DNA of 64,000 nucleotides, taken from positions 1 through 64,000 of IMG/VR virus record IMGVR_UViG_3300036785_000305; one strand, 5' to 3'. A program made the position numbers and the translations under genes. Position 1 is the first letter of the stretch. The number at the start of each line of letters is the position of its first letter. The notes beneath the pieces were generated by a model that did not search any database, was not told where the DNA came from, and saw only the letters and a program-made list of their open reading frames with translations. Below, piece by piece: positions 598 through 63,210 of this stretch. The DNA comes from a virus.

Positions 598-743
598 CGA
601 CTCGGAACGGAACCGGGACGCTGCGGAGGGTGGTGATCTAGGGTGGAGGGTCTGAAGTTCTGGCCCATGGTGGTTGGTGCGGGTTTGTCCCTTGGCCCGT
701 CACCTATTGGATGCGCAGCGTTGTGCTCTGGGAGTTTGGTGAT

Positions 744-1199
744 ATGCCCGTGAGCCGTGGTTCCTGGCGTACGACGCCCCTGCCCAGTGGGTGGGGGCGT
801 CTGCGCGCCTCGGTACTGATCAGAGACCCGATCTGCCGATGGGGGATGCTTCCGGGCGAGGATGGCCCGTGCCATATGCCGTCGACGACTTCTGACCATA
901 TGGGTCCGCCCGATGACCACCGTATCGAGTTGCTGCGCGGGTTGTGCGAGCCGCATCATGTGCGCCGGTCTGGTCAGCAGGGCCAGGCGGCGAAGACCGC
1001 CAGGTATAGAGCAATGAAGTTCCGGCCGAAGGAGCCACATCCCGGCTTCATTAGGGATGGTGGATTATGCCTCCAGCGCCGTTCGTGCCTATCCAGAAGC
1101 ACCGCTCGCCAGGGGACGGCGAGAAGGCATGTCCGACCTGCTCGGGGACAGGGTCGGTCGACACGCACATCTGCAAGACCTGTCATCACTCCGGGGTAG
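744..1199 (+). CDS. HNH endonuclease next to the terminase genes
   Basis: From an ATG with GGGAG 9 nt upstream the protein reads LRASVLIRDPICRWG, then PCHMPSTTSDH, GPPDDH, LLRGLCEPHH and HPGFI. This is the layout of small phage HNH nucleases: C31/C43 and C68 as metal ligands, DH at 51-52 as the catalytic HNH histidine, HH at 71-72. The usual Asn of 'NL..LC' is replaced (LLRGLC). HNH proteins beside terminases (HK97 gp74 type) are known to support cos cleavage, and that role is inferred here. After HPGFI (about residue 107) the frame runs on for about 44 unconserved residues, overlapping the next gene by 133 nt, so the true stop may have been lost. Confidence 0.75.
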   Translation: MPVSRGSWRTTPLPSGWGRLRASVLIRDPICRWGMLPGEDGPCHMPSTTSDHMGPPDDHRIELLRGLCEPHHVRRSGQQGQAAKTARYRAMKFRPKEPHPGFIRDGGLCLQRRSCLSRSTARQGTARRHVRPARGQGRSTRTSARPVITPG

Positions 1200-2447: not shown

Positions 2448-2903
2448 GTGGTAGCAGCCAGGAAGAAACCAGCTCAAAGGACCGGCGCGGGTTCCGGGGT
2501 AGCTGATGACCCGCGCTTCCTCTCCGTGTCCAAGGGTGCCTCGCGTGCCAGGGAAGTTCCCATTCCTGACGCGAACCCCAGCTGGCTTCCGGCGGCACGG
2601 TCCTGGTTCCGCTCCCTGGCGCTGTCGGGCCAGTCTGAGTTCTATGAGGCTTCAGACTGGTCCACGGCAGTACTTGCGGCACAGATCTATGACATGTTCT
2701 TGCGGTCGCATCATGCGAATCTGCTGCCGTCATTCGAGCGGCTGTCGGCGAGGCTCGGCGTGACGGTAGCCGACCGAAAGCGCAACCGCATCGAACTCAA
2801 CGAGCCTGAAGTTACTGACATCGATGAGGAAGCTGCCGACCAGGCGGTCGTCGACTGGCACGGCCGCCTCGGCATCGTGCGTGATACCGGAACGGACGGG
2901 TAG
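2448..2903 (+). CDS. Terminase small subunit (putative)
   Basis: 151 residues from a GTG with GGGAGGGG just upstream. After a basic N terminus the body is alpha-helical (PSWLPAARSWFRSLALSGQSEFYEASDW, in two pieces, and FERLSARLGVTVADR), ending in an acidic tail. This is the pattern of actinophage terminase small subunits, which recognise the packaging site and load the large subunit. The call rests on helical content, size and position two genes before the large subunit rather than a diagnostic motif. Confidence 0.6.
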   Translation: MVAARKKPAQRTGAGSGVADDPRFLSVSKGASRAREVPIPDANPSWLPAARSWFRSLALSGQSEFYEASDWSTAVLAAQIYDMFLRSHHANLLPSFERLSARLGVTVADRKRNRIELNEPEVTDIDEEAADQAVVDWHGRLGIVRDTGTDG

Positions 2904-3770: not shown

Positions 3771-5426
3771 ATGGACATTGCGCCGCGTGACCGTCTCGTC
3801 ACCCTGCCGGAGGGGATTCCTAAGCTCACCCTTGGCTGGGAAGCTATTCACTGGGCGTCGAAGTACCTCAAACAACCAGACGGGCCGGATGCGGGAGACC
3901 GCTGGGAGTTTACGGAATCGCAAGTGCGCTTCCTTCTGTGGTGGTACGCGATACGGGAGGATGGGCGTTGGGTTTTCTACCATGGTGTACGGCGCTACCC
4001 AAAAGGCGCTGGGAAGTCCCCATTCGCGGCTGTACTAGCCATGATCGAGCTGCTAGCGCCCGTTCGCCTGCTCAAATACGATCTCGACGCGCCTGGTGGA
4101 TGTCTTGGCAAGGTTGTATCTATGCCGCTCGTTCAGATCGGCGCTTCATCTCATGACCAGGCAAACATCAACACAATGCGCATGGTCCGGGCTCTCCTAC
4201 CAAAGAATTCGAGAATCCTCAAGGACTATGATGTCGAAGCTGGCAAAACCATCTTCCATATCCCAGGCGGTGGCCAGCTCATGGTCATCACGTCTTCTCC
4301 CACTACCGAGGAAGGGGCGCTGGTCACGTTTGCGATTCTGGACCAGACGGAATCGTTTACGCCGTCCAACGGTGGAGTTGAACTTGCCGAAGTTATGGAC
4401 CGTAACGTCGGCAAGTCTGGGTCGCGGATTATCGAGACTTCGAATGCCTGGGAGCCGGGGAAGGAAACCGTTGCTGAGAACACGTTTGATGCTTGGGTGG
4501 CGCAGGAGGAAGGGCGCCTCAAAGGCAAAGGCCGTATCCTATATGATGCGCGCATGGCCCCTCCTGATGTCGATTTCGATGACATCGCCTCGATTCGCAA
4601 GGCTGTCGAGTTTGCTTATGGTGATGCTTATTGGGTGGATGTTGAGGATATTGTGGAGAACCGCATCCTCTCGCCTCGCACACCGCTCGATGTCTCGAAG
4701 CGTTATTACCTCAATTGGCCAGAGTCTCCAGAAGATGCCTGGACCACGCCACAGAAGTGGGCGCGTCTTGCGGATGTTGAATTCCGTATTGAAGATGGCT
4801 CTGATATCGCAATGTTCTTCGATGGCTCGCGGACTTCGGATGCTACGGCTCTGGTTGGATGTCATATAGAGACCGGGTTTGTATTCTCGCTCGGTATCTG
4901 GGAGCCTTTGGGATCTGGGAAGCCGATCCCGGTCGATGAGGTACACTATGCCGTACGGGCGGCAAAGGAAAAGTGGAACGTATGTGCGTTCTTCGGGGAC
5001 GTTAATGAGTGGGAAGAGTCCACGAAGATAACTTGGCGTGAGGAATTCGAGGATACGCTGGACGTATGGGCGGTGCCGACCGGGCGCGACCCGCAGCCGG
5101 TTGCCTGGGACATGCGCTCGCACGTCGCGGAATTCACGCATGCGTGCGAAATGGTACTTGGCGAGATTGATTCGCCCGTGCCGTCATTCAAACACGATGG
5201 CGACTCGGCGCTAGGCCGTCACGTAGCGAATGCCCGGCGTCGGCCGAACCGCTGGGGCGTGTCAATCGGCAAGGAGTCTCCTAAGTCGCCTAAGAAGATT
5301 GACGCCTGCGTCTCTATGATCGGGGCGCGGCACGCTCGACGTCTCGTGCTAGCTTCAAAGAAGTACAAGGAACGCAAGGATGCTGCCATGAAGCGTGGTG
5401 GCCGTCGTGTCTGGAGTTTCAGCTAA
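3771..5426 (+). CDS. terL: Terminase large subunit (packaging ATPase and nuclease)
   Basis: 551 residues, the usual length. Walker A-like RRYPKGAGKS (74-83) and Walker B FAILDQTE (187-194, with the acidic pair replaced by DQTE as in many siphophage terminases) mark the ATPase. The C-terminal RNase H-like nuclease begins near MFFDGSRTSDATAL, with further acidic positions in FFGDVNEWE and DACVSMIGARH. It translocates DNA into the prohead through the portal and cuts it at the end of packaging. It is followed by a one-base TAATG overlap with a tiny gene and then portal. Confidence 0.95.
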   Translation: MDIAPRDRLVTLPEGIPKLTLGWEAIHWASKYLKQPDGPDAGDRWEFTESQVRFLLWWYAIREDGRWVFYHGVRRYPKGAGKSPFAAVLAMIELLAPVRLLKYDLDAPGGCLGKVVSMPLVQIGASSHDQANINTMRMVRALLPKNSRILKDYDVEAGKTIFHIPGGGQLMVITSSPTTEEGALVTFAILDQTESFTPSNGGVELAEVMDRNVGKSGSRIIETSNAWEPGKETVAENTFDAWVAQEEGRLKGKGRILYDARMAPPDVDFDDIASIRKAVEFAYGDAYWVDVEDIVENRILSPRTPLDVSKRYYLNWPESPEDAWTTPQKWARLADVEFRIEDGSDIAMFFDGSRTSDATALVGCHIETGFVFSLGIWEPLGSGKPIPVDEVHYAVRAAKEKWNVCAFFGDVNEWEESTKITWREEFEDTLDVWAVPTGRDPQPVAWDMRSHVAEFTHACEMVLGEIDSPVPSFKHDGDSALGRHVANARRRPNRWGVSIGKESPKSPKKIDACVSMIGARHARRLVLASKKYKERKDAAMKRGGRRVWSFS

Positions 5427-8957: not shown

Positions 8958-9440
8958 ATGAGCGAGGTCAAGGTGAGGACCGGCTCTGTAAGAACTTCGC
9001 CGACCCAGATGAGGACTCGCGGTGAACGTCCGCCTCGCCTGGTTCCTGTGACTGAGCAGATGCCTGGGGAAGTTGACCCCCGTTATAGTTCCGTTATACA
9101 GACTCTTACGGTCCTGCCTGCGACGATCAACCTGGTTATATATCAGGGCGATGACTTCTTCTTTGACATGCAAGTCATGGATCAGAACAGCAATCTGATC
9201 GATCTTACTAATTCACAGCCGATGAGCCAGATCCGGCTAAACCCTGATGCTCCGACGATTCTTGCCAGTTTTGTCGTAACGATTGACACCGGTGTTCTTG
9301 GATTGCTACATTTCCATCTTCCGGCCATTCAGTCCAATCTTCTGCCTCTGACATCGGCTTGGGACGTACAGCTGTCGAATCCGAACATAACGACTCTCGC
9401 AGCCGGGTCGGTTACCTGTGAGCCGCAGGTGACGCAATGA
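8958..9440 (+). CDS. Baseplate/spike-associated beta-sandwich protein (BppU-like)
   Basis: 160 residues. INLVIYQGDDFFFDMQVMD, followed by LIDLTN, a beta-rich stretch, and WDVQLSNPNITTLAAGSVTCEP, is the layout of the N-terminal domain found on upper-baseplate and tail-fibre proteins ('i.qGDdf...v.v.D..g...dLtg...WDl.l....g...tl..G.v.v...vT'). Such domains anchor fibres or spikes to the virion. The first 45 residues are polar and probably flexible. It overlaps the spike start (ATGA), so the two are translated together. Confidence 0.65.
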   Translation: MSEVKVRTGSVRTSPTQMRTRGERPPRLVPVTEQMPGEVDPRYSSVIQTLTVLPATINLVIYQGDDFFFDMQVMDQNSNLIDLTNSQPMSQIRLNPDAPTILASFVVTIDTGVLGLLHFHLPAIQSNLLPLTSAWDVQLSNPNITTLAAGSVTCEPQVTQ

Positions 9441-12400: not shown

Positions 12401-13744
12401 CATATTAGTAGGCTCTTTGCGAATGGTTGCAAGGGCGGGATAAACCTCCAGGGTAGCGCTGGAGTTAGCACTACATTCACTTCAACGATTAATGAATGTA
12501 ACCTTGTCAATTGCCAGGCATCTGCTGCTATTAACATCCAAGACGCGATACACGTCGAGGTTGATAATTGCATCATTTGGGGCAATCAGGGTAATGGCAT
12601 CGTTATTTCCGGCGTATCTACCAATATCTTTATTGAAGGAACGGACGTCGGGTCCTACAGCGGCACTACCGGATCAGGATTGCTCGTTCAGAATACTGGC
12701 GCCAATAACCCTGGCGATATATACATATCAAACTCTTATTTTGCCGGAGGTCTCTACGCCGGGCTGATTGCTGCCGGAGCAAGAATCTATGCTACGAATT
12801 GCGTATTTGGATGGGCGCAGAGTCACGGACTGTACTTTAGTGGTGTTGCCACTACTACCTTCGTTACATTGACTAACTGCCTATTCACGACTAATGGTAG
12901 GACTGCTGGAACATGCTACGAATTGTTCTGGGCGGGTAGCGGGATCATCAATGTTATAGGATGCCAGTTCGGAACCTGGGTTAACACTACTCCGACTGCT
13001 GGCTATGTTGCAGCAACGATGAACTTTACGGCCGGTACATCGACTGTTAGTGATTGCCAGATTCTTAACAACGTGGCCCCCGGTACTGGCACGTACGCTG
13101 GCCGTCCGACGTATTCGGTAAACAACTATGGCGAGCCGACATCTAACTTCCCGGCTGTGAGGGCTGGAGGTATTGCTGGTACGACTAATGCTACGCGATA
13201 TGTCGGTGCTACTGGTGGTGGAGGTCCGCCTGGTTCCGGTACGTTCGCTGTCGGTGACTTTGTCGTAGATCCGCAGGGTCAGGTTTACATTTGTACAGTT
13301 GCCGGGTCGCCGGGTACCTGGACTGGCACAGGCCCTTACACGGTATTTGCTTATGCTAACCCTAACTATACCGTGCCTGCTGATAACTTGCCGCATAATA
13401 TTGTCGGCGCTGTCGTGACTGTGAATGTTCAGCCTGGCTGGGAAGTTCTTGTTAACTATTCATCATTCGGCTTGATTGGTGAAGCCAATGCTGCTGCTCA
13501 TGCCATCCTGAGCTGTAATCTTTTCCTTGATGGAGCAGCGGCACCAGGTGTTCCTGCAGGAATGTTGTCTGCCAGAAACGCTAGTATTGGTTATGCCGCA
13601 ATGATTTCAAACATATGGAAATTTACCGGACTATCGGCTGGCAGCCATACAATTCAGCTTGTCTGTCAATTCAATGGGACGACTAGTGCGGCTATTATCC
13701 AACAGTCTTCAATTTCAGCTACTGTTTCTAGACCACCAATGTAG
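9437..13744 (+). CDS. Giant tail spike with two pectate-lyase-like beta-helices and two lectin-like domains
   Basis: 1435 residues. Domain order seen: N-terminal strand region (1-33); first right-handed beta-helix opening WYNVKTMYGADNAGNIDST (about 38-330); a strand-rich linker; a short collagen-like stub GATGPQGPVGPSP (about 465); two tandem concanavalin/LamG-like repeats (about 478-653 and 656-832, both with YQFDCYI, FYFGCN, GVWHTVT and YFDNI); a second beta-helix opening WYNVKTMFGADPTGNIDAT (about 837-1240); and a C-terminal jelly-roll-like domain. Such spikes bind and cut host surface polysaccharide. The duplicated halves suggest domain duplication. Unusually it sits between portal and scaffold genes, with its own promoter. 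I cannot assign catalytic residues or the sugar. Confidence 0.85.
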   Translation: MTETYEPFQVTVTAQATPVVTAILPSTAQGSTPSVMWYNVKTMYGADNAGNIDSTTVIQNAINAAHNAGGGVVYFQPGTYKISAPLVVYGGIQIRGDGDANTVINQTSSGSNCFTGTDLNNFKVSNIQLSGPAAGTGKGIQLGLSSHASTGFLHFEDVFVQKFGGDAIDIDTPMASVFDRIITQSNNGNGWNTHSSTYGDSCVWNACFSKSNGLAGFTHTNLNYSDMNGCASDGNAQGIVLTNCQSVVINGPGAESNTGDNFTISGGFGNVLVSPRVFQNANYGIRLTANAKNCSVIAAVDIAPLPGAVAFVITDAGTTCSVMNINNTSPLTFNGSVTVLNDGSGDISAPGLITAYGGIDTTGLSTSAVAKTGAYTLTGTDSTILANANSAAFSVTLPSAAAAGIAGQIYTVKKIDASANVVTVATQSSQTIDGKPNATLTTQYNFVMVQSDGANWQIIGGIAVGATGPQGPVGPSPAQIIDVGDNAAAWSYVQGNNGFMPTTAQGNPGTSYLLSNSNFTVGRNIGPQAHYQFDCYIAAGGWINFYFGCNSAGAGYMSRIDTRSGQPNGISTATAWNTFSGVNGALPAATAGVWHTVTVDVGSNLLTMKVDGVIVYSGNLGGTIAPMGNYIGMSTAATTSYFDNIYVGYSGPVSSPLQAFDIADSAAAWNYGAGNAGFAVSGAQGNPGNSYIVPAAVVVTRNIGAQTHYQFDCYIPANLLCDFYFGCNALGAGYIARVDSRAGTNCGVGTTTSWGAFAGIVGSANIGPVTSGVWHTVTIDVGINLITMKIDGILAHSGNMGGTVNSMGAFIGLSSETGSCYFDNIGIGYSSPPASQLGVLWYNVKTMFGADPTGNIDATAAINNAIVAANATGYGGTVYLPPGWYKISSPINFNNCNFVELRGDGTASRLQPTAAFAGAAAIISTGGGRNAVNNFLIQFTTAWNTNPVADGIQVVHSPYFQTTNVEVLAFNGYGISVICDATGGSSWAHISRLFANGCKGGINLQGSAGVSTTFTSTINECNLVNCQASAAINIQDAIHVEVDNCIIWGNQGNGIVISGVSTNIFIEGTDVGSYSGTTGSGLLVQNTGANNPGDIYISNSYFAGGLYAGLIAAGARIYATNCVFGWAQSHGLYFSGVATTTFVTLTNCLFTTNGRTAGTCYELFWAGSGIINVIGCQFGTWVNTTPTAGYVAATMNFTAGTSTVSDCQILNNVAPGTGTYAGRPTYSVNNYGEPTSNFPAVRAGGIAGTTNATRYVGATGGGGPPGSGTFAVGDFVVDPQGQVYICTVAGSPGTWTGTGPYTVFAYANPNYTVPADNLPHNIVGAVVTVNVQPGWEVLVNYSSFGLIGEANAAAHAILSCNLFLDGAAAPGVPAGMLSARNASIGYAAMISNIWKFTGLSAGSHTIQLVCQFNGTTSAAIIQQSSISATVSRPPM

Positions 13745-13750
13745 GAGTGT

Positions 13751-14389
13751 ATGATGAGCGCTGACGCAGCTGACGCCGGAACGGCGAATGGTGCTGTGCC
13801 CGGAACGGGTGAGGGCGATACCGAGGGCCAAGGGCAACTCGAAGGTGGCGAGCAAACGCAAGGCCAGGAGGGCGAAACGCCTGACCCGGCTGCCGAACTC
13901 GCTCACTGGAAGGAGATGGCGCGGAAGCACGAGAAGCGCGCCAAGGAGAACGCCGCAGCAGCGGCGAGACTGAAGACGATCGACCAGGCCAATATGACTG
14001 AGGTCGAAAAGGCCGTAGCAGCACAGCGCGAAGCGGAACGCGAGCGCGACGAGGCACGCGATATGCATGCCCGCATGATGGCTGCCGCGGCCCAGGACCT
14101 ACCAGTAGAACTCATCGATTTCCTCGGCACCGGAACGGAAGAGGAAATTGGCGAGCGAGCAGAGCTACTCGCCAGCTGTATCGAAGAGACCGCTCAGGCG
14201 ATAGCGGAACAATTGCTGAACGATAAGATCGCGTCAGGCGAACTTGTCGTCGCAAACGGCAATGGCCGGAACGGCCAGCCTCAAGTCGTACCGGGTCGCC
14301 CGGTCGAATCCCTGCGGGCTGGATCAGCCCCCGCCGGAACGGCGCCAGCAACCCAAGAGCAATGGTTCCGACAGCTGCTCGGACAGTAG
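13751..14389 (+). CDS. Capsid scaffolding protein
   Basis: 212 residues. An acidic Gly/Gln/Glu-rich N terminus is followed by a long coiled coil (AELAHWKEMARKHEKRAKEN, then VEKAVAAQREAERERDEARD), a helical middle and a C-terminal QEQWFRQLLGQ. This is the usual actinophage scaffold plan and it directly precedes the capsid gene. It shapes the prohead and is removed before or during packaging. Two adjacent ATGs (13751, 13754) follow GGAG. Confidence 0.85.
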   Translation: MMSADAADAGTANGAVPGTGEGDTEGQGQLEGGEQTQGQEGETPDPAAELAHWKEMARKHEKRAKENAAAAARLKTIDQANMTEVEKAVAAQREAERERDEARDMHARMMAAAAQDLPVELIDFLGTGTEEEIGERAELLASCIEETAQAIAEQLLNDKIASGELVVANGNGRNGQPQVVPGRPVESLRAGSAPAGTAPATQEQWFRQLLGQ

Positions 14390-42675: not shown

Positions 42676-43113
42676 CTAGTAGGGAGCCTCGGCAGTGGAC
42701 GGCTTGGACCGTCCGCGACCACGGCGGGCCGGTGCCGGCGCGGGCTCTGGCTCTGGCTCCGGTGCGGCGGCTGCCCGGCGCGGTCGGCCACGGCCGGCAG
42801 GCTTGGCCGGCTCGGGCTCAGGTTCCGGGGCAGGAGTGCGGGCCGCACGGCGGGCTTCCCGGCGCTCCACGTTGAACTCGGACCTCTGGAAGTGGCCGTA
42901 CAGGCCAGCGCCGAGAGTGAGTATCCTGTCGACGGGAACGTCGTCCAGGCTGGCCACGTTGTCCTCGAACCAGGTCACGAAGTCCGCCATCGTCGGGGAG
43001 AGATCCTTGTCCAGGTACCTCTGGAAGTCAACCTCGCCGTTCTGTTCCGGCTCTGGTTCCGGCGCGGGTGCCGGTCGGGTCGTGGACCTACGTCCACGAG
43101 TGGCAGGAGGCAT
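42676..43113 (-). CDS. Short form: Pro/Glu-rich protein with the YLDK...YGHFQ domain
   Basis: 145 residues from ATG 43113, with AAAGGGAAATC upstream and a strong promoter 60 nt before it. Low-complexity PAPEPEPE tracts flank a helical domain QRYLDKDLSPTMADFVTWFE...VDRILTLGAGLYGHFQRSEFN (shown in part). The same domain occurs in the proteins at 53799 and 60210. The C terminus is Arg/Pro/Glu-rich. Its repeated use suggests a shared partner, for instance DNA or a replication protein; function unknown. Confidence 0.7.
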   Translation of the reverse strand: MPPATRGRRSTTRPAPAPEPEPEQNGEVDFQRYLDKDLSPTMADFVTWFEDNVASLDDVPVDRILTLGAGLYGHFQRSEFNVERREARRAARTPAPEPEPEPAKPAGRGRPRRAAAAPEPEPEPAPAPARRGRGRSKPSTAEAPY

Positions 43114-53602: not shown

Positions 53603-53802
53603 TACTGCCCCTTCGCCTGCTTGCGCTCTTTGTCGGCAAGTCCTTGGCAGTACCATTCCGCCTGCGTCGTGGTGGCTGTTTTCCTCCCCGTCCCGGTGCT
53701 GATAACCCAAGTTGAACGCCCACCTTCCTCAGGTGGCGAGTAGTCGATGCCGTGATGCATGAATGCGCGCTCGATAGCGTTACGCCTGTCCTTGACGGTC
53801 AT
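53602..53802 (-). CDS. Unknown 66-residue basic protein
   Basis: MTVKDRRNAIERAFMHHGID, STWVISTGTGRKTATTTQAE. ATGA overlap with the upstream gene. The sequence suggests a helix followed by a strand pair. No motif recognised. Confidence 0.55.
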   Translation of the reverse strand: MTVKDRRNAIERAFMHHGIDYSPPEEGGRSTWVISTGTGRKTATTTQAEWYCQGLADKERKQAKGQ

Positions 53803-54317
53803 TTCGCTGCTGCCCGTCCCTGTCGGTTGAAGTCTGATGGCTGGAAGTACCTGTAGGTGCGGAGGGCGATCAGCACTGTCCGCGGGTCAACGCCGTTCGG
53901 GAAGGTGTCGCTGAAGTTCTCTTCGATCCAGCGCGAGTACCTCAGGATGTCGTCTGGAATTGGCTTCGTCAGGTAGCCGCGATGTCCGCTGATGCGCGGG
54001 GTCTTGGTCTTAGTTCCGTTGCTGCGCGGCTTCGCCGGCTGTGGCTCTGGCTCAGGCTCGGGCTCGTTGTCCTGGAGGGAATCAGTACAGGGCTTCCACT
54101 CCATCCCCTGCCAGATGTCGAAGCTGAACTCGCCGTGCTCGCGCTCGTACTCCTCAAGGATGCCGTTGTTCCAGTAGTCGAAGCAGAACGCCTCCTTCGA
54201 GCCCCAGTCCACTCTGCCGAATTCGATCTTCTCTTGATTCTGCGGCTTCCGATGACCGCACCGGTATTCGTGAATATGTACTGTGCCGTCGCTTATGTTC
54301 CAGGCGAACAGTCGCAT
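53799..54317 (-). CDS. Protein with C-terminal YxDK...YRYFQPSDFN paralogous domain
   Basis: 172 residues, AAAGGA upstream. N-terminal globular part (MRLFAWNISDGTVHIHEYRC, FCFDYWNNGILEEYEREHGE), an EPEPEPEPQPAK linker, then GYLTKPIPDDILRYSRWIEE...VDPRTVLIALRTYRYFQPSDFN (in part). That last domain is shared with the genes at 42676 and 60210, where it is again attached to low-complexity linkers. Confidence 0.7.
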   Translation of the reverse strand: MRLFAWNISDGTVHIHEYRCGHRKPQNQEKIEFGRVDWGSKEAFCFDYWNNGILEEYEREHGEFSFDIWQGMEWKPCTDSLQDNEPEPEPEPQPAKPRSNGTKTKTPRISGHRGYLTKPIPDDILRYSRWIEENFSDTFPNGVDPRTVLIALRTYRYFQPSDFNRQGRAAAK

Positions 54318-54395: not shown

Positions 54396-54908
54396 CTAGG
54401 CGGTTAGTGACTTGGCCGGGTGGCCGTTGGTGCTGCCTTCGAGCTTTCGCTCGGCGCGGTAGATGTCATAGAGCCAGGTGATCTCGCCGCCGCCCGGGTA
54501 CTCGGCCAGGAACGCGCCGATTGCGAAGAACGCTTGATCGTCGGCGTAGTCGTTCTTGTCGAGCCCGTGAAGAGTGCTGATGTAGATCGTGCCGCCGCCG
54601 ACCGCGCAGATAATCCTGCGGGTCACGACGTTGTAGAGGTAGGTTGCGCTACCCTCCTTGAGTTCGTCGTCGCTCCAGCCGACGGCTCTGGCATCTTCCT
54701 TGTTGGAGCAGCGCCGCTCGATGACGTACAGAAGGCAGGTCGGGTCGTAGGTCTTGCCGAAAATGTAACTGCCGTCGGCCGCGTACTGGGCCGGTGTGAT
54801 CCAGAATTCGAACTTCGGTGGCGTCGCGGCCTTGCGCGCCTTGATTGCTGCCCTCTCCCGCGCCTCTGCTTCGGCCAGTTCGCGGCGGAGGTCTGCTGAT
54901 GATTTCAC
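54396..54908 (-). CDS. Unknown 170-residue protein
   Basis: N-terminal helix (MKSSADLRRELAEAEARERA), then FEFWITPAQYAADGSYIFGK, CLLYVIERRCSNKEDARAVG and TRRIICAVGGGTIYISTLHG. It looks like an alpha/beta protein with one conserved Cys pair. Driven by the promoter at 54937. No family recognised. Confidence 0.6.
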   Translation of the reverse strand: MKSSADLRRELAEAEARERAAIKARKAATPPKFEFWITPAQYAADGSYIFGKTYDPTCLLYVIERRCSNKEDARAVGWSDDELKEGSATYLYNVVTRRIICAVGGGTIYISTLHGLDKNDYADDQAFFAIGAFLAEYPGGGEITWLYDIYRAERKLEGSTNGHPAKSLTA

Positions 54909-56892: not shown

Positions 56893-56959
56893 ATCCCCTT
56901 TTCTAGTGACTGGATAGCCACTCCTCAGGCGACGGCCTTGGCCGCCGCCCAAAGGGCAA
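56893..56959 (-). promoter_or_regulatory. Two-hairpin SD element, copy 1
   Basis: Minus-strand order: stop codon, UUGCCCU, hairpin P1 (12 bp, CAAG loop), GAGG, hairpin P2 (AGUGGC with GUCACU), UAGAAAAGGGGAU. P1 closes with a U-A pair where copies 2 and 3 have G-C. Confidence 0.8.
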
Positions 56960-57130
56960 CTACTCGCCTACTTCCGTCTTCTCATCTATCAGGATGTAAC
57001 CCTCGACGACCCAGAACCGGCCGAAGGCAGAGGTAATATGGCCGGCGTCCATTGCGTCCCAGATCGCCTCGTGGACTGCTTCATCCTCGGTGATGTACTC
57101 GTCTTCGAGATTCAGCTTCGCTACATACAC
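56960..57130 (-). CDS. 56-residue acidic protein, unknown
   Basis: GTG 57130 (GAGG 9 nt upstream). MYVAKLNLEDEYITEDEAVH, EAIWDAMDAGHITSAFGRFW, ending DEKTEVGE. First gene behind the promoter at 57168. Short alpha/beta, no motif recognised. Confidence 0.6.
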   Translation of the reverse strand: MYVAKLNLEDEYITEDEAVHEAIWDAMDAGHITSAFGRFWVVEGYILIDEKTEVGE

Positions 57131-57167
57131 TACACACTACCTCACTCGCTCCGTCGTCCTTACCTCT

Positions 57168-57197
57168 ATTATACCCTAGCACAAGGCTAGCAGAATA
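57168..57197 (-). promoter_or_regulatory. Promoter
   Basis: TATTCT (57197-57192), 18 nt, TATAAT (57173-57168), then AGAGGTA. CTCTGACC precedes the -35. It lies downstream of the array's first genes, between the 57202 stop and the 57130 start. Confidence 0.7.
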
Positions 57198-57201
57198 GAG
57201 G

Positions 57202-57438
57202 TCAGAGCGGCTTGTCGAAATCCGCGCCGAGCCTGTCGACGATATACGCATTCAGCTTTGCGTACACCGTTCGAGTGGCGGGACGGCCGGGCAGGTCTAG
57301 AAGTTCCTGCGCGATAGTACGAGCTGAGCGGCCACGCCGCTTCATGCCTTTGATCTCCAGGCTCAAGGCTGCTCGCAAGGCGAGTACGCTGGCCATGCGA
57401 GTCTGCTCTTCGCCCGAGATGCTGAAGCCTTCGCTCAT
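57202..57438 (-). CDS. 78-residue helical protein, unknown
   Basis: ATG 57438 follows AAAAGGGGATGACA. MSEGFSISGEEQTRMASVLA, LRAALSLEIKGMKRRGRSAR, TIAQELLDLPGRPATRTVYA. Helical, with a basic middle (KGMKRRGRSART), possibly nucleic-acid binding. Confidence 0.6.
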   Translation of the reverse strand: MSEGFSISGEEQTRMASVLALRAALSLEIKGMKRRGRSARTIAQELLDLPGRPATRTVYAKLNAYIVDRLGADFDKPL

Positions 57439-57442
57439 TGTC

Positions 57443-57513
57443 ATCCCCTTTTCTAGTGACCTGATAGCCACTCCGCAGGCGACACCTCGCGGTGCCGCCC
57501 ACAGGGCAGTTAC
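57443..57513 (-). promoter_or_regulatory. Two-hairpin SD element, copy 2
   Basis: GUAACUGCCCU, P1 of 12 bp closed by a GCGA (GNRA) tetraloop with outer G-C, U-G and G-U pairs, then P2 (AGUGGC/GUCACU, loop UAUCAG) and UAGAAAAGGGGAU. Confidence 0.85.
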
Positions 57514-57915
57514 CTAGACTTCCAATTCCGTCTTGCCGCAGCTCGGGCAGACATAGGAAGTGTTCATCCCGTCGCCGAGAATGTAGTGGTGACGGATATG
57601 GAACGCAGCGCCGCAATCGCACACGAACTCGATCTCCAGGATGCTCGACCACTTCGGCGTTGTCCTGGCGACGAGTTCCGCGTTGTACTGGCCAGGGTTG
57701 TCGTAACCCGCGGCAAGCACAGCTCGGACGCGGCAGTCGCGCTCCCACTCCGCGATCATGTCGCCACAGTCGCCGCTCGGGTCGCCCATTGGATCGGGCT
57801 CGGCGGTAATGTAGCTCCAGACTGCGGACGCGGCGCGGCTTAGCTTGCTCGCTGCGTACCGCACGGCAGGCGCTTCCTGCTCCCACGGAATCAGCTCGTA
57901 GTCGTCGCTGTCCAT
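57514..57915 (-). CDS. Zinc-ribbon-containing protein
   Basis: 133 residues from ATG 57915. MDSDDYELIPWEQEAPAVRY, AASKLSRAASAVWSYITAEP; the C terminus EIEFVCDCGAAFHIRHHYIL, NTSYVCPSCGKTELEV has two CxC/CxxC pairs for one zinc ribbon. Function unknown, perhaps nucleic-acid binding. Confidence 0.65.
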   Translation of the reverse strand: MDSDDYELIPWEQEAPAVRYAASKLSRAASAVWSYITAEPDPMGDPSGDCGDMIAEWERDCRVRAVLAAGYDNPGQYNAELVARTTPKWSSILEIEFVCDCGAAFHIRHHYILGDGMNTSYVCPSCGKTELEV

Positions 57916-57918
57916 CGT

Positions 57919-57993
57919 ATCCCCTTTTCTGTTCGTGGCTGGATAGCCACTCCGCAGGCGACACCTCGCGGTGCCGCCCACAGGGCAGTTACC
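57919..57993 (-). promoter_or_regulatory. Two-hairpin SD element, copy 3
   Basis: Same P1 as copy 2 (GCGA tetraloop). P2 is GUGGC/GCCAC with loop UAUCCA, a full Watson-Crick version of the G-U containing helix in copies 1 and 2. Ends in CAGAAAAGGGGAU. Confidence 0.85.
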
Positions 57994-57994
57994 T

Positions 57995-58210
57995 TCAGTC
58001 CTGCTGCTTCGCCCGGTTGCGCAGGAAGTTGATAAAGTCTTCCATGCGTTCCTCTCGCCAGTCGCGGAGTTCCCACTCGGCTATTGGCTTCAGCGGGGCG
58101 TGGTACGCTTCGATGTACGCTAGGTACGCAAATTCCTCGGGCGACAGGTCGCCGTCGAATGCTGGATCGTACTCTGGCTGGTCATCGAACGCCTCAGCCT
58201 CAGTGCGCAC
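57995..58210 (-). CDS. 71-residue acidic helical protein
   Basis: GTG 58210 behind GGAGG, overlapping the upstream gene by 11 nt. VRTEAEAFDDQPEYDPAFDG, DLSPEEFAYLAYIEAYHAPL, EWELRDWREERMEDFINFLR. The middle motif 'LSPEEFAYLAYIEAYH' is helical. Function unknown. Confidence 0.6.
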   Translation of the reverse strand: MRTEAEAFDDQPEYDPAFDGDLSPEEFAYLAYIEAYHAPLKPIAEWELRDWREERMEDFINFLRNRAKQQD

Positions 58211-58400
58211 CTCGCACCTCCAGACGCTGGCCCTTGCCCAGGCCGAGGCCCAGACCATAGAGGCGGAAGTGCTCTTCGCACATGAATGCCCACGGCCCGT
58301 GAATCGTCGCGCCATCGTACAGCGCAGGCTCGGGCTCGCGAGTGCCGTGGACAAAGCTACACGATGGTAGCTCGTCGACCACAACCTTCGTGTTCGGCAT
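58200..58400 (-). CDS. 66-residue protein with a Cys/His site
   Basis: ATG 58400 follows copy 4. VVVDELPSCSFVHGTREPEP and AFMCEEHFRLYGLGLGLGKG give C...H and CxxH, a recurring actinophage pattern ('C..H......AfYDGkT..GpWa.MC..Hf...G.GLG.G'). Probably a zinc protein of unknown function. Confidence 0.7.
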   Translation of the reverse strand: MPNTKVVVDELPSCSFVHGTREPEPALYDGATIHGPWAFMCEEHFRLYGLGLGLGKGQRLEVRGAH

Positions 58401-58402
58401 TG

Positions 58403-58485
58403 TATCCCCTTTTCTGTTCAGTGACTATTCCCTCTAGCCACTCTCCGGGCGACAGGCGCGGTTACGCCTGCCTCCCAGAGGGCAG
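58403..58485 (-). promoter_or_regulatory. Two-hairpin SD element, copy 4
   Basis: UAACUGCCCU, then P1 with an enlarged CAGGCG/CGCCUG inner helix and an A-G mismatch, P2 AGUGGC/GUCACU with a longer loop, and CAGAAAAGGGGAU. Confidence 0.75.
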
Positions 58486-58596
58486 TTACAGGAACTCTTC
58501 CGGCAGTTCCTCTAGCCAGTAGGCGCGACTGGAATGCTTAGGCTTATATGCCCAGCCGTTCCACCATCGTGCGAGGCGAATCAGGATCTCGCTCAT
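58486..58596 (-). CDS. 36-residue protein
   Basis: ATG 58596 overlaps the previous stop (ATGA). MSEILIRLARWWNGWAYKPK, HSSRAYWLEELPEEFL; Trp-rich and basic, with a helical C terminus. Its stop (TAA) is the first base of copy 4. Function unknown. Confidence 0.55.
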   Translation of the reverse strand: MSEILIRLARWWNGWAYKPKHSSRAYWLEELPEEFL

Positions 58597-58877
58597 CGCG
58601 GCGGGAACAGGTCGTTGAAGTTCGTGCCGGGCGCGTACTTGCTGGCGTCCACGCCACGATAGAACTTGACCAGACGGCCGAGGTTCTCATGATGAGGAGC
58701 GACGGTATCGAAGCTGCCGTGCGTAGTGCGGTGCCACGTCTGAACGTAACCGCCGGGGTAGTCATTCGAATGACTGGCTACCTCGGTGATCTCACAGACC
58801 CGAAGGTCATTGTTCCAGAACTTGAGACCAACCTCGATCGGGAAAGCGTCGACACTGTAGTGCGTCGCCTTGTCCAT
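58593..58877 (-). CDS. Unknown 94-residue protein
   Basis: MDKATHYSVDAFPIEVGLKF, WNNDLRVCEITEVASHSNDY, VQTWHRTTHGSFDTVAPHHE. Beta-rich, His-rich. It follows copy 5. Function unknown. Confidence 0.6.
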   Translation of the reverse strand: MDKATHYSVDAFPIEVGLKFWNNDLRVCEITEVASHSNDYPGGYVQTWHRTTHGSFDTVAPHHENLGRLVKFYRGVDASKYAPGTNFNDLFPPR

Positions 58878-58880
58878 TGT

Positions 58881-58964
58881 ATCCCCTTTTCTAGTGACTT
58901 CGACTTTCGATAGCCACTCCCCGGACGACGGTGATTTCTCGCCGCCGTCCGGAGGGCAGTTACC
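58881..58964 (-). promoter_or_regulatory. Two-hairpin SD element, copy 5
   Basis: P1 here is CCGGACGGCGG with CCGUCGUCCGG: the inner G-C pair of other copies has become A-U, a true compensatory change. P2 AGUGGC/GUCACU, then UAGAAAAGGGGAU. Confidence 0.85.
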
Positions 58965-58970
58965 TAATGC

Positions 58971-59222
58971 CTAGAGGTCGAGCTCAGCCAGGATATTGCC
59001 GTCGCCGACCGGCGACATATCCTCGGCGACATCCTGCGTCTCAATCGCGTAGGCGAGGTCGCGCAGGCAGGCTCCGACAGTCTCGCGGTCGATGCCGTGG
59101 CCGAGAGCGATTCGCGCAGCCAGCGTCGAGTTGAACTCAAGCAGTCCGAGCGCGAATGCCTTACGCTCGTGCGCTTCCTCGTAGTCGCCAACAACAGGCT
59201 GCTCGATTTCGCCGTTGCTCAT
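58971..59222 (-). CDS. 83-residue acidic helical protein, unknown
   Basis: ATG 59222. MSNGEIEQPVVGDYEEAHER, KAFALGLLEFNSTLAARIAL, CLRDLAYAIETQDVAEDMSP. Mostly helical, no motif. Follows copy 6. Confidence 0.6.
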   Translation of the reverse strand: MSNGEIEQPVVGDYEEAHERKAFALGLLEFNSTLAARIALGHGIDRETVGACLRDLAYAIETQDVAEDMSPVGDGNILAELDL

Positions 59223-59226
59223 CGTA

Positions 59227-59299
59227 ATCCCCTTTTCTAGTGGCGTACGTTCGTAGCCACTCCCCGGGCGACACCGCTTAGGTGCCGCCCAGAGGGCAG
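59227..59299 (-). promoter_or_regulatory. Two-hairpin SD element, copy 6
   Basis: P1 outer pairs C-G, U-G; loop UAAGC. P2 is the perfect 6-bp AGUGGC/GCCACU. Ends in UAGAAAAGGGGAU. Confidence 0.85.
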
Positions 59300-59485
59300 T
59301 TACGCCGTAGCGTACTCGGAGAACATTGCCCAGTTCTCGGGAAGGGCACTCCACAACTCGCGGAGTTCCTCATCGTCGACGACGAGCGGCCTGCTGAACC
59401 GCTCGCCGTCCCGGAGCAGCACGATCCGGGATACGCCGAGCAGGTGGGCGTCGCACTTATTCCGGCCGTCGCACGCGCAGGCCAT
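59300..59485 (-). CDS. 61-residue Cys-rich-start protein
   Basis: MACACDGRNKCDAHLLGVSR has three Cys and one His in the first 14 residues; the rest (LRDGERFSRPLVVDDEELRE) is alpha/beta. TAATG overlap with the upstream gene. Function unknown. Confidence 0.6.
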   Translation of the reverse strand: MACACDGRNKCDAHLLGVSRIVLLRDGERFSRPLVVDDEELRELWSALPENWAMFSEYATA

Positions 59486-59616
59486 TACTTAGCCGCCTGC
59501 GCGTAGAACTCGATCTTGCTCTTCAGCGCGGCGCGGATGCTACCGGGCGCCTCAACGGCGTCGAGCAGCCACATCGCGGTGTTGGCGAGTTCCCGGATGG
59601 CTTCGTCCTTATCCAT
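59485..59616 (-). CDS. 43-residue helical protein
   Basis: ATG 59616 behind copy 7. MDKDEAIRELANTAMWLLDA, VEAPGSIRAALKSKIEFYAQ. Fully helical, possibly a dimer. Function unknown. Confidence 0.6.
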   Translation of the reverse strand: MDKDEAIRELANTAMWLLDAVEAPGSIRAALKSKIEFYAQAAK

Positions 59617-59620
59617 CTCA

Positions 59621-59691
59621 ATCCCCTTTTCTAGCAGCCGAATGGCCACTCCCCCGGCGACGGCCGTAGCCGCCGCCCGGAGGGCAGTCAC
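59621..59691 (-). promoter_or_regulatory. Two-hairpin SD element, copy 7
   Basis: P1 ends in a UACG (UNCG) tetraloop, outer pairs C-G and C-G with one internal mismatch. P2 is AGUGGCC/GGCUGCU with loop AUUC. Ends in UAGAAAAGGGGAU. Confidence 0.8.
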
Positions 59692-59943
59692 TTAGTCGCA
59701 GGTACAGCCGACCAGCTTCGCCGGCAGGTGATTCGGAAACTGCCTCGTAATCGGGCAGACCGGCCGGAGGTCCCTAGCCGGGCACGGGCATTCCTCGGTA
59801 CGCCAGGTGACGTAGAAGATGCTCCGCGCCCCGATGTAGCTGATGTTCTTAGTGCTCCATCGGAGGTCAGGATGGTTAACGCACGTCAGCTCGATGTGCT
59901 CGCCGTACTCGGCGAAGGCTACGATGCGACCGTCGTTGTCCAT
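59692..59943 (-). CDS. 83-residue protein with Cys-rich C terminus
   Basis: ATG 59943. MDNDGRIVAFAEYGEHIELT, CVNHPDLRWSTKNISYIGAR, then EECPCPARDLRPVCPITRQF and LVGCTCD. Eight cysteines/histidines suggest two zinc sites. Function unknown. Confidence 0.6.
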   Translation of the reverse strand: MDNDGRIVAFAEYGEHIELTCVNHPDLRWSTKNISYIGARSIFYVTWRTEECPCPARDLRPVCPITRQFPNHLPAKLVGCTCD

Positions 59944-59947
59944 TTAT

Positions 59948-60024
59948 ATCCCCTTTTCTATTCAGCAGCCTGGATGGCCACTCCCCGGGCGACGGGGAAA
60001 CCCCGCCGCCCGGAGGGCAGTCAC
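59948..60024 (-). promoter_or_regulatory. Two-hairpin SD element, copy 8
   Basis: P1 is a fully paired 13-bp stem (one G-U) with a UUU loop and C-G outer pairs. P2 AGUGGCC/GGCUGCU, loop AUCCA, then AUAGAAAAGGGGAU. Confidence 0.85.
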
Positions 60025-60129
60025 CTAGCCGTCGATCTCACCCATATCGATCAGCATCGCGCGTGCCTCTTTAGCGTTCTCCGCGAGGCCACTTTCGACG
60101 AGTGCCTGGATCTTAGCCTTAGTGCTCAT
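60025..60129 (-). CDS. 34-residue helical peptide
   Basis: ATG 60129 behind copy 9. MSTKAKIQALVESGLAENAK, EARAMLIDMGEIDG. Helix-turn-helix sized, but too short to call. Function unknown. Confidence 0.5.
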   Translation of the reverse strand: MSTKAKIQALVESGLAENAKEARAMLIDMGEIDG

Positions 60130-60132
60130 CGT

Positions 60133-60209
60133 TATCCCCTTTTCTATTCAGCAGCTACGATAGCCACTCCTCGGGCGACGGCCGAAGCCGCCGCCCAAAG
60201 GGCAGTTAC
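60133..60209 (-). promoter_or_regulatory. Two-hairpin SD element, copy 9
   Basis: P1 ends in the classic C(UUCG)G tetraloop; outermost pair U-A. P2 AGUGGCU/AGCUGCU, loop AUCGU, then AUAGAAAAGGGGAU. Confidence 0.85.
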
Positions 60210-60602
60210 CTACGCCTTCCTACGGCCCAGTGCCTTACCGTCCGCGTCGCGGTTCGCCGGTGACTTCTGGAAGTGCCCGTACGCCTTAATCGCGATATAG
60301 ACAAGCCTCTCGTCCATCGCGACGGGAAGGGCGTACAGCTCCGGGAACTCGGCACGCAGCCAGTCGCAGTAGCGCTTCGCCACGGGCGAGAGTTCCTTAT
60401 CGGCGTAGCCCTTAAGGCCAGACGATACGGTCGCCTTCTTAGCAGACTCCGCAGCGGACTTCGCCTCCGCCAGTTCCGCCTCCGCAGCCGCGATCCGTGC
60501 GTCGCGCTCGGCGAGCAGGGCCTTAAGCTCAGCCAGCTCGGCAGCAGCGGACTTACGGGCGGCACGGGCGACGGTCGCCGGAGTAGCAGTCTCGTTAGCC
60601 AT
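60210..60602 (-). CDS. Coiled-coil protein with YADKELSP...YGHFQKS domain
   Basis: 130 residues from ATG 60602 (CGAAAAGGGGAAG upstream). A long N-terminal helix (AAAELAELKALLAERDARIA) is followed by GYADKELSPVAKRYCDWLRA and VYIAIKAYGHFQKSPANRDA. The C-terminal domain is the third copy of the family in this window and here it is joined to a dimerising coiled coil. First gene of the array behind the structured leader at 60630-60751. Confidence 0.7.
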   Translation of the reverse strand: MANETATPATVARAARKSAAAELAELKALLAERDARIAAAEAELAEAKSAAESAKKATVSSGLKGYADKELSPVAKRYCDWLRAEFPELYALPVAMDERLVYIAIKAYGHFQKSPANRDADGKALGRRKA

Positions 60603-60629
60603 TTTCTTCCCCTTTTCGAGCATTTTCGA

Positions 60630-60751
60630 CTACCGGGATCGGTAGCCGGCGCGCACGTTCGCGAGCAGTTTTCGACGGCTTCGAAAAGCACGCGAACGCG
60701 ACGCCGGGTAGATATCCCGTACGGAGCACCCATCGGTAAAGAGAGTGCTCC
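60630..60751 (-). promoter_or_regulatory. Structured leader RNA with nested hairpins
   Basis: Minus-strand order: hairpin 60751-60723 (7 bp), then a large stem 60707-60646 with CCGGCG/CGCCGG outside, CGTTCGCG/CGCGAACG in the middle and TTTTCGA/TCGAAAA inside, then a 6-bp hairpin 60645-60630, then the ribosome site. The 60603-60629 spacer holds it. Confidence 0.7.
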
Positions 60752-61460
60752 CTAGGAAAAGGGGGGATATTCGCTATGTAGGTTTCAAGAATCAGTCGGG
60801 ACGCTCCGGGCCGAATCGCTAAGGGCACTACTAATACCCTATCGTCGCTATCCTACGGAGCGGGACGGGAGCACCTCCCGCCGAGCACCTTCGCCGGTCC
60901 CCCGCGCGCGACGCGCGCGCGGCCCGGCCCACCCTCCTATCTAACGGTCTAACCTTATAGCTAAAGCTTATCGTACTATCCGGCCCTAGCATATAGCTAT
61001 CTAGGACTATCTTAGGACTAGATAGGGACTAGATTTTCGTAGCCCAAAATAACTAGTCGCGCGCCTATCGGTCGTAGTCCTTTAGGACTAGATTTTCGAC
61101 GCACACGTAGCCCGAAAGGACTAGACGCGGGTGGGCGCGCGTAGCCCGAAAGGACTAGTCCCGCGACGCACACACCGCCCGAATTAACTACTCGCGGCGG
61201 GCGCGACGTAGTTCGAAGTAACTAGTCCGCATAGCCCGAATTAACTAGTTCGCGCCCATCGGTGGGGGCTCGAAAGGACTATCCGTGGGTCCATCGGTCG
61301 TAGTTATTCCGGAGGGTATCGCCATAGTTATAGGGAGGGGGTCGACTACACTCGCGCGTAGTTCGAAAGGACTAGGCCACGCCCATCGGTGGGTAGCCCG
61401 AAAGGACTATAGGCGACCATCGGTGACTGTAGTCGACCCCTCCCAGATAACTAGTCCGGG
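60727..61460. repeat. Non-coding region with two interleaved short repeats (origin or control region candidate)
   Basis: No gene is visible between 60603 and 61615. Repeat A, TAG(C/T)(C/T)CGAA(A/T)...ACTAG (about 16 nt), has copies near 61040, 61075 (palindromic TAGTCCTTTAGGACTA), 61108, 61142, 61175, 61209, 61232, 61266, 61359 and 61394, with half-copies at 61001-61032 and 61446. Repeat B, C(C/T)ATCGGT, appears at about 60729, 61064, 61255, 61290, 61382 and 61417. 60940-61035 is more AT-rich and 60901-60925 is alternating CG. Confidence 0.75.
61321..61450. repeat. Long inverted repeat within the repeat region
   Basis: Arms 61333-61350 and 61428-61444 match over 17 bp with one bulged G; flanking TAGTTAT blocks extend the similarity to about 25 nt. 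The roughly 77-nt loop contains two copies of repeat A and two of repeat B. Confidence 0.75.
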
Positions 61461-61542
61461 ACCGGCGTAGCTGGGGCTCATAGAAATCGCAACCAATTTT
61501 TAGCAGCGTCTAAAATGGGGGAATTCCTGTTGCGTAGACGTG

Positions 61543-61576
61543 AAAAAGCCCGGCCCCCATTGCTGAGGACCGGGCT
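61543..61576 (-). terminator. Intrinsic terminator of the 61616-63210 gene run
   Basis: On the minus strand AGCCCGG and CCGGGCT form a 7-bp stem followed by a run of five U. It lies 40 nt beyond the stop of the last gene (61616). Confidence 0.85.
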
Positions 61577-61615
61577 CTGGCTAGACCCACCCGCGTGGGC
61601 GGCTACTGGGGATAG

Positions 61616-61828
61616 TTAACACGCGGGCGGGGGCTTTTGAGAGTTTTTGATTTCATCCGGATCCAGGCTGAACAGGATCTTCAGGTCGAATGCTGCGTGC
61701 TGGGCCTCTTCGGCTGCTGCGTGTGCCTTCGCCCGGTTGCCGGAGTATGCCGCGGCCAGGCATCTACGCACGGCAACCTGGACTTTGGATGCGGCTGCGG
61801 TGAGCTCATCACGAGTCGGCATTGACAT
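61616..61828 (-). CDS. 70-residue helical basic protein
   Basis: ATG 61828 (TGATG overlap). PTRDELTAAASKVQVAVRRC, AAYSGNRAKAHAAAEEAQHA, FDLKILFSLDPDEIK. Helical bundle-like; no motif. Last gene before the terminator. Confidence 0.6.
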   Translation of the reverse strand: MSMPTRDELTAAASKVQVAVRRCLAAAYSGNRAKAHAAAEEAQHAAFDLKILFSLDPDEIKNSQKPPPAC

Positions 61829-62630: not shown

Positions 62631-62660
62631 AGTATACCGTACCCAGGGCCTATCAGGGAA
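62631..62660 (-). promoter_or_regulatory. Promoter, second subtype
   Basis: TTCCCT (62660-62655), 18 nt, TATACT (62636-62631). Nearly identical over 30 positions to 50301-50330. It overlaps the stop codon of the RuvC-like gene (62653). Confidence 0.65.
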
Positions 62661-63210
62661 GAGGGAATTTATAGTCAGGATATTTAGGATCTCCTGGCCA
62701 GAGCGATATAGCAAATTCTGGGTTCTCAGCAGCCCGGCGTAGGGCAACAATGGCGTGTCTGGATGCCGCCCGGATATGATCACTTCCCTTTACCCAGAGC
62801 TGCCATTTATGTAGGCGCTCATCTGTTGCCGTACCGAACGCCAAGGCGCGGGACTGGAAGTGAAGAGTTGAGTCGCCCATTCTCTTCTGGTACTTAAGCA
62901 ATGTCAGCATCGCGCCTATGCGAACAGGGGAAAGGGTCTCAGGGTCCGTCGACTTGAAACCTGGGTCCTGGTCCCAGGCCTCGCAGATAAGAGCTGGCCC
63001 GTACATGTAATCAAGGGACTGAATCTCACCAGCGAGCCGCGCCAGCTCTACGGCCTGGTATGCTTCATCGCCGGTGAACTCGCCGTAGTCAATTTCAAGG
63101 ATCTTCCGTGGCTCATTGCCGAATATACACTTGCGTTCTACAGTTATGACAAACCAGCCGGTCGTCGAGCCAGGGTCGATGCCCATTACGTGGATGTTCT
63201 TCGGCGGCAC
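62653..63210 (-). CDS. RuvC-like Holliday-junction resolvase or nuclease
   Basis: 185 residues from a GTG with GGAGGGAAT upstream. VMGIDPGSTTGWFVITV (D11 in GIDPGSTTG) is the RNase H-fold N terminus; ALICEAWDQDPGF has the second acidic residue, and WVKGSDHIRAASRHAIVALR is the C-terminal helix. In close relatives this helix usually has 'DA..H', but here 'AAS' stands at that place, leaving D of SDH as the possible ligand. Probably cleaves branched DNA in replication or packaging. Confidence 0.8.
   Translation of the reverse strand: MPPKNIHVMGIDPGSTTGWFVITVERKCIFGNEPRKILEIDYGEFTGDEAYQAVELARLAGEIQSLDYMYGPALICEAWDQDPGFKSTDPETLSPVRIGAMLTLLKYQKRMGDSTLHFQSRALAFGTATDERLHKWQLWVKGSDHIRAASRHAIVALRRAAENPEFAISLWPGDPKYPDYKFPLP

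Follow-up and report, generated by a model that had tools for sequence, protein, structure and literature searches.

In phage lambda, cosB lies on the terminase-gene side. The stoperators of L5 are short, asymmetric and directional repeats that serve as operators at dispersed places in a temperate phage genome. As described in the lambda literature, cosB is made of several repeated recognition elements (R3, R2 and R1) beside cosN (PMC6739421), and lambda works without an HNH partner (PMC9410871). HK97 uses an HNH protein, and its TerS binds a 15-bp site located 15-29 bp from the cut (PMC11331095). The way in which packaging motors recognize their own DNA is called unclear and controversial in a recent review on TerS (PMC9611059), and in the open-licence literature we found no report of an array such as the one described here at an actinophage cos site.

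The window analysed here is a stretch of 64,000 bases, the first part of a virus record of 66,231 bases. An overlap of 137 bases with 99% identity joins the two ends of the record, which is thus effectively a 66.1-kb circle, cut elsewhere. The window carries an array of short repeats (Table 1) that probably forms the right genome end of an uncultured actinophage, adjacent to cos. We consider it rather likely that this array is the right-end half of the cos packaging site, that is, a lineage-specific, multi-copy, cosB-like packaging recognition array. Megablast of positions 40-64 kb against named phages gave no match, nor did Rfam and tRNA scans of the window; a search of genome contigs with TerS found no relative, and searches with two right-arm proteins (the array-adjacent one and that of 54396-54908) found none either.

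The first-pass annotation had placed two interleaved short repeats, one of them with freely combining halves, in a gene-free region about 2 kb from primase and RuvC-like genes, and these observations hold. Indeed, between 60624 and 61473 we counted 10 sites within 2 mismatches of the 16-bp palindrome TAGYYC-N4-RRACTA (9 of them within 1), 10 ACTAG and 6 CYATCGGT, far above chance: in 500 dinucleotide shuffles the palindromes averaged 0.06 (maximum 1) and the octamers 0.12 (maximum 2). The consensus TAGYYCGAAWKRACTA is found 5 times in the whole record, always inside the array, and 6 of the 7 CYATCGGT of the window lie there. The freely combining halves are the half-sites of a palindrome, as the 16-mer forms an imperfect inverted repeat (perfect in TAGTCCTTTAGGACTA). 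CYATCGGT is asymmetric, with 6/6 of the array copies on one strand, and reads ACCGAT(G/A)G on the minus strand. The gene-free stretch is bounded by the leftward 137-aa gene and by position 61616, with only short ORFs (51, 53 and 61 aa) within the array, and the RuvC-like gene (62653-63210) and primase gene (from 63563) lie ~1.2-2.1 kb beyond the array end. Only the extent, given as 60727-61460, had to be adjusted, the feature starting at 60730 and reaching as far as the cos point (61462/61473).

Table 1. Features of the array, the putative cos site and the packaging genes (window coordinates)
Feature	Position	Strand	Remark
HNH endonuclease	711..1199	+	phrog_333, E 5.7e-19
Terminase small subunit (TerS)	2448..2903	+	PF25673 Terminase_7, E 1.6e-24
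Terminase large subunit (TerL)	3771..5426	+	phrog_9, E 6.7e-63
First right-arm gene, 137 aa	60210..60623	-	coiled coil and small domain with paralogues
ACCGATGG copy 5	60730..60737	-	
Ten imperfect 16-bp palindromes TAGYYC-N4-RRACTA	60994..61409	no strand	mismatch scan; starts 60994, 61040, 61075, 61108, 61142, 61209, 61232, 61266, 61359, 61394
Variant octamer copy ACCGATAG	61065..61072	-	CTATCGGT on plus strand
ACCGATGG copy 4	61256..61263	-	
ACCGATGG copy 3	61291..61298	-	
ACCGATGG copy 2	61383..61390	-	
ACCGATGG copy 1	61417..61424	-	39 nt inward of right cut
Degenerate G-rich box	61432..61446	-	CTGGGAGGGGTCGAC on minus strand; C run missing
cosN, cos cleavage site (very likely)	61463..61473	no strand	11 nt between inferred cuts, CAGCTACGCCG on minus strand
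Left genome end	61474..61490	-	GCGATT then 11 nt to cut; conserved at ends of relatives' contigs

That the 11 nt listed as cosN are the cos site is very likely, its position being well supported by two lines of evidence, the contig ends of relatives and a box found at a matching distance from the right ends of isolate genomes. The cuts are placed from the ends of assembled contigs. With the RuvC-like protein as query we obtained 5 related contigs, of which three stop at one and the same point next to the array, in each case exactly 11 nt past GCGATT. The right-arm ATPase and helicase retrieved contigs that start in an array from the opposite side, and G010 (63,688 bases) spans from one side of the cos point to the other. 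A TerS search gave 80 loci, and the starts of 39 were inspected. Altogether 11 contig ends of relatives fall at two cuts. Seven TerS-containing contigs start at the left one, five with AATCGC at base 12 (L089, L105, L110, L111 and L108) and two with variant hexamers (L100 and L101); four contigs starting with GTC mark the right one (G006, G007, L113 and L115), L113 and L115 being outside the original clade and counted only for the cut. The cuts are separated by 11 nt in the window and by 10 in the spanning relatives L073, G015 and G016. Since the bases between them are missing from contigs on both sides, we infer that cleavage leaves 3′ overhangs, which would be trimmed in library preparation. 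Defined, staggered genome ends at one site, as expected of an HNH-type cos packaging site, are thus found together with the complete gene set expected of it (HNH, TerS and TerL).

A second landmark is the GGGG..CCCCC box. It starts 31-35 nt from the right end of the record in 8 of 11 isolates (phiHau3, Saftant, Amela, Issmi, Nergal, SpecialK, Poushou and Juicebox) and 21 nt from it in R4; it is degenerate in MalagasyRose and absent from GretelLyn, which was picked by RuvC similarity, the others having been picked by TerS or TerL similarity. In the clade it lies 21-23 nt from the cut in G007, G011, G014, G016 and L073, or ~32 nt counting the overhang (10 + 22 = 32 nt to the box start in L073). 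Five of 8 clade right ends have it complete; the C run is lost in the window, G006 and G010, the first two keeping only the G half at that place and G010 being without it. The degenerate box of the window is aligned with that of G006 at equal spacing from the cut, and its position matches that of the box in relatives and isolates. As a marker of cos right ends, the box is shared by several groups of actinophages: like the window, Streptomyces R4-like, Corynebacterium, Curtobacterium and Mycobacterium phages carry it near the right end, and in R4, phiHau3, Saftant, Amela and Issmi the last 640-780 bp are without annotated gene. Unlike the window, none of the 11 isolate right ends has a ACCGATGG array, phiHau3 having a single copy.

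By its position, it is this box rather than the octamer that would correspond to the HK97 TerS site. The two systems share HNH, TerS and TerL and a 3′ overhang (inferred here), and the conserved box ~21-34 nt from the cut may be the counterpart of the HK97 site at bp 15-29. They differ in that one short TerS site is reported for HK97 (PMC11331095), whereas here a directional multi-copy array extends past the box over several hundred bp. On this view the octamer array comes as an additional layer.

The comparison of relatives, which had been proposed as a check, shows that the array keeps its place beside cos and that the octamer is conserved, the palindromes being only partly shared. On the minus strand, ACCGATGG occurs in 8 of the 9 clade right ends, in one constant direction from cos; the ninth (G015) shows only ~130 bp inside the end, without an exact copy. 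Seven right ends, examined over their first 6 kb, gave 44 copies, 44/44 in one orientation and 0 reversed, and whole-record counts for these 7 records (321 kb) added none, so that no copy is more than 2.5 kb from cos; as a control, the reversed pattern was counted 19 times in these records. Among the 12 other records in that count, G001 has 1 copy, G018 has 3 on both strands, and 10 have none; G018, which is without array, had been retrieved because of its helicase, and the box subsequently served to locate its cos. In L073, 6/6 further copies point in the same direction, this contig having been found via the motif itself and thus not being an unbiased case. A 12-bp core, yCACCGATGGGCG, is common to the 44 copies, 8 of its letters being fixed by the search, and their flanks are not conserved. 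Adjacent spacings of at most 60 bp (11, 20 four times, 30 twice, 31, 32, 34, 35, 40 and 43) tend towards multiples of 10.5 bp (p 0.002, n=13; p 0.005, n=11, when two duplicates are dropped).

A wider scan for paired CACCGATGGNCG gave 10 contigs, 4 of them of this group (3 already known, and L073 as a new one); the other 6 were set aside as unrelated coding sequence, low-complexity sequence or tandem repeats. The unrelated contig L070 carries at 13928-14190 an 18-bp tandem repeat containing CACCGATGGACG.

The relation between array and cos could be examined in lineages where the genes around cos differ. L121, with identities of 55% for TerS, 54% for HNH and 81% for TerL, carries between its HNH and TerS genes all the elements at issue: cosN (ATGCGTCAAG followed by GTC), the box, and ACCGATGG in 4 forward copies. 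These copies lie 53-368 nt inward of the box start, with the same polarity from cos as in the main clade, and are without the GCG tail. This layout, a single case, indicates that the array follows cos and its polarity and not the right-arm operon. Six other TerS-related cos sites have the box along with cosN or its right cut (L113, L114, L115, L118, L124 and L127/G018), and within 1.1 kb inward of their cos ACCGATGG is absent in the array orientation, L113 showing little sequence before TerS and L118 having one reversed copy; in place of ACCGATGG, L114 and L115 have three copies of GGGCTCTACTTTT. As these array-less sites go with TerS proteins of 55-63% identity, TerS need not be the octamer reader. 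The side of the box faces TerS in L113, L114, L115 and L121, and away from it in L118, L124, L127 and the main clade; judged from these arrangements, cos appears to flip orientation between lineages.

Compared with lambda cosB, the window again has several repeated elements beside cosN, TerS binding of its copies being only putative. It differs by another sequence, more copies and the presence of an HNH gene, lambda having no HNH partner (PMC9410871), and also by its side: in the window clade the array and the terminase genes are at opposite genome ends, and only that of L121 is TerS-side.

In the main clade, the direction of the octamer also matches leftward transcription, and this was weighed against a role in packaging. 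The right-arm operon starts here, its leftward genes beginning just inside the array, and ACCGATGG and/or the palindromes, which look like dimer operators, could bind a phage regulator at an early leftward promoter. Moreover, four G011 copies and one G007 copy belong to the 5′ leaders of genes situated as much as 2.5 kb inward, in some cases just upstream of start codons, which counts against packaging, as packaging does not predict them. We nevertheless regard such a promoter or operator as unlikely. Scanning the array for promoter and terminator consensus sequences gave no match, with no sigma-70-like site in 60600-61620 (consensus scan only), and there is no second conserved promoter box around ACCGATGG. 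The homologue of the first right-arm gene is inverted in G014 and G016, yet no reversed ACCGATGG is found there, and in L121 the motif stands by cos, between HNH and TerS. Finally, neither integrase nor resolvase was found in 6 records.

A replication origin, in which ACCGATGG would be the iterons of a phage initiator and the AT-richer stretch the melting site, seems to us quite unlikely. Direct, phased repeats in the same orientation would suit it, primase and RecA-like genes are 2-4 kb off, and the GC-skew analysis proposed as a check does show a sign change near 61 kb. This change is confounded with gene direction, which switches within ~2 kb, and so does not provide origin evidence, and the position and polarity of the array track cos, not replication genes. 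Nor do all relatives have an array-adjacent gene in common: the homologue of the 137-aa gene borders the array in most of them but not in G010, and for this reason its product was rejected as a universal binder; a model of this protein gave no usable fold match. A promoter or origin function may share the region with a packaging role.

The first-pass annotation was right about the kind of element, a binding-site array, and the functions that it named are not the best fit. A partition centromere with parS-like direct repeats we consider highly improbable. The RedRock parS loci (PMC7157519) each have eight direct repeats of an 8-bp motif, and share with the array short, asymmetric and directional repeats. 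However, no ParA was found: family PF13614 is absent in 9/9 records, with 14/14 positive controls. Lysogeny was likewise dropped after integrase and resolvase were looked for in 6 records and none found, leaving no sign of an extrachromosomal prophage. The same search speaks against stoperators of the L5 type, whose repeats are also short, asymmetric and directional; unlike them, the motif of the window is not genome-wide, being confined to the right 2.5 kb.

A further property of the octamer is its avoidance elsewhere. In the pooled pieces of 12 clade records outside the arrays, where ~8.5 kb of G006 are counted twice (L018/L035 overlap), ACCGATGG was seen 0 times vs 12-17 expected and ACCGATG 6 times vs 45-60 expected. 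A maximal-order Markov estimate was useless, as the sub-words are depleted too, and lower orders were therefore used. With the order-2 model, ACCGATG ranks 4th among 3170 seven-mers counted as pairs and having at least 0.8 times its expectation, and the three more depleted word pairs are all palindromic restriction-type words; with the order-3 model it is about eleventh among pairs of 5092. The word was seen 8 times vs 43-54 expected in 19 TerS-related loci with 59-98% TerS identity (nominally at least 65%, the group taking in two loci at 59 and 61%). The counts were 26 vs 22-31 expected in 21 array-less loci (53-63% TerS identity) and 40 vs 38-58 expected in 13 distant loci. The depletion thus goes with the array clade.

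Packaging recognition, the role that we favour for the array, could proceed as follows. Terminase and its HNH partner would cut replicated concatemers at cosN, leaving 3′ overhangs. Inward of the cut, the G-rich box would lie near the distance at which HK97 TerS binds, by analogy, and past it would come the direct yCACCGATGGGCG copies, which share one orientation and are for the most part helically phased. A packaging protein would dock on these copies, TerS or a partner being the likeliest candidate for the octamer reader. Docking would identify the concatemer as phage DNA and give packaging its direction, like the R elements of lambda cosB, and stray octamer copies would misdirect or titrate the packaging protein, hence their avoidance elsewhere. 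If terminase does read the array, this avoidance and the lineage-specific words offer a sequence handle on self-DNA recognition by packaging motors.

More tentatively, the cos signal of the clade could be many phased one-way copies of a word that a packaging protein reads so specifically that it has been purged elsewhere, in a cassette that moves and flips with cos, other lineages using other words (e.g. GGGCTCTACTTTT). If true, cos specificity would be a rapidly changing lock and key. The cos site also defines exact genome ends in a clade that is represented here solely by metagenome contigs.

The palindromes are not a constant part of the array, as they are dense in only some of them. TAGTC/GACTA half-sites reach 7-42 per kb in the arrays of the window, G006, G007 and G011 vs ~1-2 further inward, and such density was not found in those of G010, G014 and G016. 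Four of the window's ACCGATGG copies have a TAG-type palindrome or half-palindrome 15-17 nt after them, and these pairs may form compound sites. The TAG..CTA palindromes may be a second candidate site, lineage-specific, beside the octamer array.

Several other observations were made along the way. In the 273 kb pooled from 12 clade records CTCGAG is absent (0 seen vs 175-248 expected), as if the hosts cut at XhoI-type sites, and CCCCCC is nearly so (1 vs 32-55 expected). The protein that we call TerS, here and in R4-like records, is labelled 'minor tail protein' by phrog_226 and by several RefSeq records, while Pfam and other records label it terminase small subunit; a structure model of it was unusable (pLDDT 54). 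A small domain, GY..K......W....F...D.R...IA..AY..FQ.S..N, is found in three genes here (60210-60623, 53799-54317 and about 42871-43017) and in several copies in relatives, with no family match and no useful fold match. In G011 (L040), the leaders at 1081, 1483, 1698 and 2300 carry CACCGATGGGAG a short way ahead of ATG, and in them the cos octamer is linked with a ribosome-binding-like stretch. Nine leftward genes of the window (56902-60143, minus strand) have a common leader, a TGCCC..GGGCGGC stem-loop-like stretch then AGAAAAGGGGAT directly before ATG, which resembles the start-associated sequences of cluster K mycobacteriophages. Lastly, a 1435-aa gene with pectate-lyase and beta-helix domains (9437-13744), tail-spike-like, sits between the head protease and major capsid genes.
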